A stretch of DNA of 9,530 nucleotides. Origin: Ruminiclostridium sp. GTDB taxonomy: Bacteria > Bacillota > Clostridia > DSM-8532. Shown here piece by piece: positions 7,691 through 8,640 of the stretch. The DNA is taken from assembly GCA_003535195.1 (NCBI GenBank), contig DOHN01000080.1:4924-14453 (forward strand), given 5' to 3'. Made by a program: the position numbers and the translations under genes. The notes beneath the pieces were generated by a model, which saw only the letters and a list, made by a program, of their open reading frames with translations, was not told the origin of the DNA and ran no database searches. Numbering within the stretch: the stretch's first letter is position 1; each line of letters starts with the position of its first letter.

Positions 7691-7742
7691 ATGAATAATT
7701 CCATTGCTATGAGAGACAATAATGAATAATGGAGGTGTATAT

Positions 7743-7895
7743 ATGGATAAGGAAAAACCAAGGAAAGAATCAAATCCTTTGGATGAGGCCAACTTTACCG
7801 GTACTTCGGCTGGGGCTGGCATGAACAATAAGAACCAGCAGAAAAAGAACCAGAATTCTGCACAGAATAATGAATCCGGAACTACGAATCAATAA
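7743..7895 (+). CDS. Small hydrophilic protein of 50 residues, unassigned
   Basis: This short open frame runs from ATG 7743 to TAA at 7893-7895, behind a strong GGAGGTG at 7731-7737 with a 5-nt gap. It encodes a very polar protein rich in Asn, Gln, Lys and Gly, without cysteine, tryptophan or any membrane segment. It opens MDKEKPRKESNPLDEANF and has a central GTSAGAG (20-26). A well-formed terminator begins seven bases after the stop, and no terminator separates it from the CAP gene 52 nt upstream. I do not recognise the family. The composition recalls minor small acid-soluble spore proteins, but the defining motifs are absent, so that is only a guess. Reality as a gene is supported by the start signal and terminator placement. 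Confidence 0.7.
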   Translation: MDKEKPRKESNPLDEANFTGTSAGAGMNNKNQQKKNQNSAQNNESGTTNQ

Positions 7896-7901
7896 AGATT
7901 C

Positions 7902-7934
7902 AGGCAGGGACCAAAGATCCCTGCCTTTTCTTTT
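7902..7934 (+). terminator. Intrinsic terminator after the 50-residue gene
   Basis: AGGCAGGGA (7902-7910) pairs perfectly with TCCCTGCCT (7918-7926) around a seven-base loop, followed by TTTTCTTTT to 7934. This is a textbook nine-base-pair stem with U tract and isolates the hpf upstream region from the CAP transcript. Confidence 0.95.
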
Positions 7935-7955
7935 AGGAACCTTTTTTGGTGCGGG

Positions 7956-8029
7956 TTTTCCACACTATCCACAGACTTATCCACAAAAAACCCTCATATG
8001 TGGACTAATTATGGTAATAATGTGGATAA
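7956..8029. promoter_or_regulatory. DnaA-box cluster upstream of hpf
   Basis: Five 9-mers resemble the DnaA box TTATNCACA. On the plus strand are TTTTCCACA (7956-7964, one mismatch), CTATCCACA (7965-7973, one mismatch) and TTATCCACA (7977-7985, perfect). On the minus strand are TAGTCCACA (7999-8007, two mismatches) and TTATCCACA (8021-8029, perfect). The centres of the first, third, fourth and fifth are 21, 22 and 22 bp apart, about two helical turns, so they share one DNA face. The two perfect boxes form an 11-bp inverted repeat (7975-7985 / 8021-8031). No dnaA or dnaN gene is present, so this is more likely a regulatory or DnaA-titration site than oriC. Confidence 0.7.
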
Positions 8030-8043
8030 GTTTATTGATTTAA

Positions 8044-8071
8044 GAAGGACTATTCTGGGTAATATTAGAAT
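8044..8071 (+). promoter_or_regulatory. Sigma-H-like promoter candidate for hpf
   Basis: GAAGGACTA (8044-8052) resembles the sigma-H -35 form RnAGGAwWW with one mismatch. Twelve bases later TTAGAAT (8065-8071) carries the GAAT core of the -10 form RnnGAAT. Start would fall near 8078, about 30 nt before the hpf ATG. Bacillus subtilis hpf (yvyD) is known to use sigma-H and sigma-B, which makes the match plausible. A weak sigma-A alternative is TTGATT (8035-8040) with GGTAAT (8058-8063). Confidence 0.42.
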
Positions 8072-8109
8072 ACATACTTCATATCTCATCTAAGAGAGGA
8101 GTTGCATTT

Positions 8110-8640
8110 ATGAATTACATTTTCAAAGGGAAACAAGTATCAGTCACGGCAGCCATGCAGGAAAAGGCCCAGAAGAAAATCAGCAAGTTTGAGAAGTTCT
8201 TCAAGCCGGATGCGGAGGCTGTTATTACTTTCAAGGTGGAAAAAGAAAGAAACATTTTTGAAGTCTCTATTTTTTCGGCAGGCACCATCATCCGGGCAGA
8301 GGAACGCAGCACAGATATGTATGCAGCTATGGACCTTGTGGTCGAGAAACTGGAAAGGCAGATCAGAAAATATAAAACCAGGCTGGGAAAGAAAATTCAC
8401 CAGGAAGCCATGGTTCCCGAAAACTTTAACATCGTAGAAAAAATTGACGAGGACAATAACTTTGAAGTCGTACGGACAAAACGTTTTCCATTAAAACCTA
8501 TGGATACGGAAGAGGCCATTTTGCAAATGGATCTGCTGGGCCACACCTTCTTTGTTTTCATAAACGCTGAGAGCGAAACGGTAAATGTCGTATATAAGCG
8601 TAAGGATGGACGCTACGGGCTGATTGAACCCGAAATATAA
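8110..8640 (+). CDS. hpf: Long-form ribosome hibernation promoting factor
   Basis: This 176-residue protein has the two-part layout of long HPF. An N-terminal S30AE / YfiA-like domain (about 1-100) has a basic helix LERQIRKYKTRL (81-92). An acidic linker follows (about 103-117), then a C-terminal dimerisation domain (118-174) with VVRTKRFPLKPM (120-131) and YKRKDGRYGLIEP (162-174). Long HPF binds the small subunit near the decoding centre and joins two 70S ribosomes into inactive 100S dimers through the C-terminal domains. The start is backed by AGGAG at 8097-8101. It is transcribed alone: terminators lie on both sides. The upstream DnaA-box array and sigma-H-like promoter point to control by cell-cycle or growth-phase signals. 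secA, a frequent downstream neighbour, does not follow. Confidence 0.96.
   Translation: MNYIFKGKQVSVTAAMQEKAQKKISKFEKFFKPDAEAVITFKVEKERNIFEVSIFSAGTIIRAEERSTDMYAAMDLVVEKLERQIRKYKTRLGKKIHQEAMVPENFNIVEKIDEDNNFEVVRTKRFPLKPMDTEEAILQMDLLGHTFFVFINAESETVNVVYKRKDGRYGLIEPEI

Follow-up and report, generated by a model that had tools for sequence, protein, structure and literature searches.

Upstream of hpf, the gene for ribosome hibernation-promoting factor, five predicted DnaA boxes are packed into 74 bp between a terminator-like hairpin and the gene, and such an array recurs upstream of hpf across many families of Clostridia. In the reading that we prefer, at a confidence just short of even, the cluster is a conserved array of predicted DnaA sites where DnaA would assemble and would probably adjust the transcription of hpf. 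Judged from genome sequences, replication likely helps to control when Clostridia put their ribosomes to sleep.

Layout and rarity of the array

The window, that is, the whole stretch of 9530 bp that was analysed, comes from contig C121 of a 3.1-Mb assembly that consists of 213 contigs and is 82% complete. The final open reading frame ahead of the array is small (50 aa; 7743..7895, plus strand), and a terminator-like hairpin (7902..7926, plus strand) lies 3′ of it. The array itself occupies nt 7956–8029 of the 214-bp intergenic stretch before hpf and comprises two perfect and three imperfect boxes. Box 1, TTTTCCACA (7956..7964, plus strand), has one mismatch and is directly abutted by box 2, CTATCCACA (7965..7973, plus strand), likewise with one mismatch. 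Box 3, TTATCCACA (7977..7985, plus strand), is perfect and is the most conserved box of the genus alignment. The weak box 4, TAGTCCACA (7999..8007, minus strand), carries two mismatches, with a TGTG/TGTT core that recurs in the genus alignment, and box 5, again a perfect TTATCCACA (8021..8029, minus strand), ends 8 bp before a predicted −35 element. The hpf gene (8110..8640, plus strand, 176 aa) is identified by its match to TIGR00741, at 82.8 bits against a cut-off of 40.9.

The initial annotation had described five boxes in 74 bp, two of them perfect and on opposite strands, and all of them were recovered where it placed them, as was the spacing of 21, 22 and 22 bp between the centres of four boxes. 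Since box 4 has two mismatches, only four of the five satisfy a one-mismatch rule. The phasing read from these distances is present in the window and is not fixed beyond it: five other members of the genus (L033, L035, L037, L038 and L040) share the layout and place the last box 43–45 bp from the third. Helical phasing is a feature of the window's genome.

Dinucleotide shuffling of the 214-bp intergenic stretch (2000 times) and shuffling of the whole window (200 times) never produced four boxes, two of them perfect, in 74 bp. The window contains 17 boxes at up to one mismatch against a shuffle mean of 7.9. Across its 3.1 Mb, the window's genome has 117 perfect boxes, twice the number of the reversed control (59), with two pairs of perfect boxes at most 100 bp apart among 100 matches listed. 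An array was met in 7 of 581 control windows of 600 bp. Such clusters, which the proposal needed to be uncommon at random, are thus rare by the control windows and by the few genome-wide pairs among the matches listed. The array thus shows the several boxes within about 100 bp, beyond chance, that mark a DnaA-box cluster outside oriC.

Conservation in the family and across Clostridia

A search for Hpf matched 28 of 32 genomes of the family and gave 25 usable upstream regions, the window's own included; G017 (L056), where the start lies off the contig, and the fragments from G006 and G022 (L057, L058) were left out of the count. At least three boxes with up to one mismatch lie within 100 bp upstream of hpf in 22 of the 25 regions, and in 20 when at least one perfect box is required as well, so that the conservation in close relatives on which the initial annotation had made its proposal depend is indeed seen. 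The exceptions are L041, with two boxes, and L042 and L043, with none in the 450 bp upstream of hpf; these last two are natural loss cases usable for comparison. The conserved blocks of the genus alignment are box 3, the box 4 core, box 5, TGATTT and TGGGTAATA; the last box is close to a conserved −35 in this genus, and the promoter blocks remain in L042 despite its loss of the boxes. Eight loci from the genera g2, g4 and g6 (L048–L055) have bigger arrays, with 4 or 5 perfect boxes per locus. Perfect boxes were also counted in 22 family genomes over two stretches of unequal length, 450 bp upstream of hpf and 300 bp after dnaA: the hpf stretch has more of them in 18 genomes and fewer in one, and three are ties.

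Within the class, 93 genomes were taken, non-randomly, from the best-scoring listed Hpf matches. Of these, 36 have an array in the 600 bp ahead of hpf, against 5 of 1860 shuffles and the control-window rate given above, and 57 have none within that distance. It is also present in 10 of 11 named Lachnospiraceae-type records (Lachnospiraceae, Acetatifactor, Roseburia; the exception is Roseburia L180). Not one of the 66 remaining named records, most of them Bacilli (Exiguobacterium, Fictibacillus and others), has it at hpf; Fictibacillus L143 has four imperfect boxes spread over 150 bp. The tie of the predicted array to hpf is much wider than the window alone could reveal.

In the genera g2, g4 and g6, as in the sister family f2 and numerous further families, the boxes share one pattern on the hpf strand: A is separated from B by about 30–40 bp and B from C by 3 bp, and D abuts C directly. 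A related order, box-0-box-3-box, is found in the window's genus, and the window itself is without the B-N3-C-D triplet. When 391 class genomes were searched for this triplet with up to two mismatches, it was found in 139, and the reversed triplet used as a control gave none among the matches listed. Placement relative to hpf counted one triplet per genome, second and third triplets being omitted, and covered 80 genomes, 65 with both elements on one contig and 15 with them on different contigs; the 59 other triplet genomes, without listed coordinates for triplet or hpf, were excluded. On the same strand as hpf, the triplet lies 187–787 bp upstream in 49 of the 65 single-contig placements and 2.4–3.9 kb upstream in 12, and it is elsewhere in 4. 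Chance alone would hit a target of 1 kb in a 3-Mb genome about once in several thousand. Another 22 triplet genomes were examined, picked since hpf was not known nearby; the triplet is next to hpf in three of these (G250, G320, G398), next to an ABC operon or the first gene of one in three (G067, G111, G138), and next to other genes in 16. Because most placements are upstream of hpf and yet other genes adjoin the triplet in most of the further genomes, it is a general pattern of predicted DnaA sites whose preference for hpf is strong but far from exclusive.

Predicted promoters of hpf

In B. subtilis, hpf is described as dependent on SigH and SigB sites (PMC12421865). The window has a predicted SigB-type promoter, ATTTAA-N13-GGGTAA (8038..8062, plus strand), with one mismatch. 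Of the 25 family genomes, 11 have a site of this type with up to one mismatch within 180 bp of hpf (shuffles: 7 of 500), as do 23 of the 93 class genomes (shuffles: 23 of 1860). A weak SigH-like match with two mismatches (8046–8071) overlaps the SigB-type site and is no better than shuffles; matches of this quality are seen in 47 of 74 rows and 765 of 1480 shuffles. Perfect SigH-type sites are present in 16 of 93 class genomes against 4 of 1860 shuffles and in 0 of 25 family genomes, and allowing one mismatch in this family, f1, again gives 0 of 25. A SigH promoter is therefore unsupported for the window. The perfect SigH sites are not tied to the array, and 12 of the 16 fall in triplet genomes. 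No sigma-70-type site was found within nt 7700–8200 of the window.

Three SigB/F/G paralogues score above the cut-off in each of nine genomes checked, consistent with SigB being present besides SigF and SigG, the three not being told apart. The lowest-scoring paralogue is 24–42 kb from hpf in G026, G364, G298, G245 and G163, about 99 kb away in G027 and 291 kb in G337, and on another contig in G001 and G004.

Proposed control of hpf and possible titration of DnaA

The mechanism that we propose runs as follows. DnaA would bind the array, and hpf would be transcribed from the adjoining stress-type (SigB-like) promoter. ATP-DnaA beside the −35 element would hold hpf down during replication, and hpf would be released once active DnaA is lost as replication or energy fails. 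That the sign is repression rather than activation is a guess with a slight lean toward repression. The array would also soak up some DnaA, which we regard as a side effect.

In favour of control of hpf, the last box is near the predicted −35 element in the window's genus. Several observations were weighed against it. The 187–787 bp between triplet and hpf elsewhere are unusual for a promoter-bound regulator. Several kilobases with an ABC operon separate array and hpf in 12 of the 65 placed genomes, the triplet has other neighbours in 16 of the 22 further genomes, and family f22 has arrays without hpf. Moreover, 57 of the 93 class genomes have no array, and L042 and L043 no boxes. The chief rival is a free-standing DnaA sink, comparable to the B. 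subtilis DnaA-box clusters or E. coli datA, that would set the timing of initiation; adjacency to hpf would then be inherited synteny and hpf would not be the target. We consider this alternative somewhat less probable, and it deserves serious weight. It fits the variable spacing and the triplets at other genes, and it fits f22, where hpf is gone and the array persists beside a treble-clef gene with three different kinds of next gene, namely an ABC operon (G111, G138, G204), cas6 (G052) and a convergent M20 peptidase gene (G085). The array of G052 (L318) is immediately followed by a group of Cas6-Cas1 genes. The arrays are also origin-near in all of 11 single-contig genomes, at a distance from dnaA that is not constant (4.6–24.6% of the chromosome); in three of these, G068, G073 and G204, the array is not directly upstream of hpf. 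In B. subtilis, six such clusters are reported to restrain initiation (PMC5295017).

What speaks against a pure sink is that 49 of the 65 placed genomes have hpf as the next gene despite ten kinds of upstream gene: Fur, a treble-clef zinc protein, a short-chain dehydrogenase, an aromatic-acid exporter, an arabinofuranosidase, a YflT stress protein, CAP/SH3, NlpC/P60, spore photoproduct lyase and CutC. A functional tie to hpf is favoured because breaks between the upstream gene and hpf should often separate array and hpf, yet hpf stays downstream. Nothing about a pure sink would keep it beside hpf in a constant orientation, although simple inheritance could account for part of this. Assignment of the array to the upstream gene was rejected, since that gene runs in the same direction, has a terminator-like hairpin behind it and varies between lineages. 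Control of hpf by a DnaA complex is preferred over a pure sink, though the two need not exclude each other, and the sink stays a strong reading in view of the variable distance, the ABC lineages and f22.

No link between DnaA and hpf or ribosome hibernation was found in the open-licence PMC literature, hibernation papers being judged by title, in agreement with the initial annotation, which knew of none. In the available text of papers on clostridial DnaA (PMC7561715, PMC5749712), including the Clostridium taeniosporum genome, box clusters are mentioned at oriC only. B. subtilis resembles the present case in having DnaA-box clusters outside oriC, one of them upstream of sda, the gene that blocks sporulation and is activated by DnaA (PMC4447404). 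It differs in that hpf is not among the eight places at which the available text of that source reports DnaA in vivo. No Sda match was obtained in any of 15 array-bearing genomes searched. The datA, DARS1 and DARS2 elements of E. coli are likewise arrays of DnaA boxes away from oriC; they lie at an origin-related distance, which for the present arrays is origin-near and not constant, and are described as being built with IHF or Fis sites (PMC4585315). We claim no sequence relation between them and the hpf array.

A bolder version of hpf control, which we think unlikely but worth stating, is that the DnaA platform of the origin has, in a copy that lacks trios, been wired to hpf throughout Clostridia, so that ATP-DnaA, reading the replication and energy state, would directly gate hpf in bacteria without Sda. 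If DnaA gates hpf, one protein joins chromosome replication and ribosome shutdown in many anaerobes, including gut Lachnospiraceae. If the array merely titrates DnaA, it would still be a widely conserved DnaA-control site in Clostridia.

Neighbouring transcripts

The array could alternatively control another local transcript, an ABC operon or the raiA RNA, and not hpf. An ABC operon adjoins the array, partly as judged by eye, in f5, f20, f22 (3 of 5), f37, f38, f42 and f50; in f5, f38, f42 and f50 it is of the amino-acid type and lies between array and hpf, and in f20 and f37 the array is ahead of ABC-type genes. Five of 20 sources (L193, L224, L225, L250, L265) have the raiA RNA (RF03072) upstream of the array, and the order raiA RNA, array, hpf is seen in f23, f31 and f78. 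We nevertheless consider this explanation improbable: hpf follows within 1 kb in the window and in the 49 of 65 genomes mentioned above, and the window has neither a covariance-model match to raiA RNA (RF03072) nor an ABC operon beside the array. RNase P was ruled out as the identity of the RNA upstream of some arrays, for which Rfam gives raiA RNA. The raiA (ModT) RNA locus shares its neighbourhood with the array but is an RNA, separate from it. Its most frequent downstream genes are reported to be raiA genes (66%), and the word DnaA is absent from the available main text of the same paper (PMC11706538).

A palindrome near CACAAAACANNTGTTTTGTG follows box D in L190, L194, L215, L222, L223, L227 and L319 and consists of inverted DnaA-like boxes. 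It is found after the triplet in f54, f26, f16, f64, f76, f80, f87 and most f22 rows. An operator of another regulator was considered as its identity; because the palindrome is also present where hpf is absent, it goes with the array.

Relation to the replication origin

A second or relocated replication origin is a very improbable identity for the array. It is suggested by one f58 genome, in which the same triplet lies between dnaA-like and dnaN-like genes (L354:1987–2016; genes named by eye) and runs into a DnaA-trio; the four tandem trios there served as positive control for the trio test. Among the 57 hpf arrays with a triplet that were put to this test, however, at least three tandem trios within 40 bases past box D were found in only two, both of them T-rich runs; the window, being without the triplet, was judged by eye. 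In 20 stretches sampled from G026, the GC skew is positive between dnaA and 1.35 Mb, then negative from 1.49 Mb until dnaA is reached again. It switches at dnaA and near 1.4–1.5 Mb and not at hpf, which at 2.58 Mb is inside the negative-skew arm. The array of G026 is 390 kb from dnaA, outside oriC. On the GC skew of G026 and the absent DnaA-trios, oriC was rejected as the identity of the array. The hpf arrays resemble the BUS of oriC (DnaA boxes 6/7 and DnaA-trios) in their tandem, closely spaced boxes, and the f58 triplet lies in the dnaA-dnaN gap, but the hpf arrays have no adjoining trio. Unwinding in B. subtilis and other tested species is reported to require both boxes and trios (PMC8287927). 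No dnaA is among the open reading frames of the window, and none scored above the cut-off in its assembly, which is 82% complete.

A chance grouping of AT-rich 9-mers, to which the degenerate boxes of some relatives might point, has practically no probability left, being contradicted by the shuffles, the control windows and the reversed pattern.

Other box clusters

A second cluster of the window's genome (L324:2020–2061; C9 from 55219) lies just past the stop codon of tsaD, which we take to be the same gene as gcp. A strong DnaA site of B. subtilis, reported downstream of gcp and ydiF (PMC4447404), is similarly placed. In genus g32 of f26 (L347, L348, L349) extra triplets lie near galU-like and SigH-like genes, names given by eye, and in f17 (L328, L363) a triplet is ahead of a hisD-like gene. 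The L328 triplet directly follows a sigma-70 family gene that resembles SigH.
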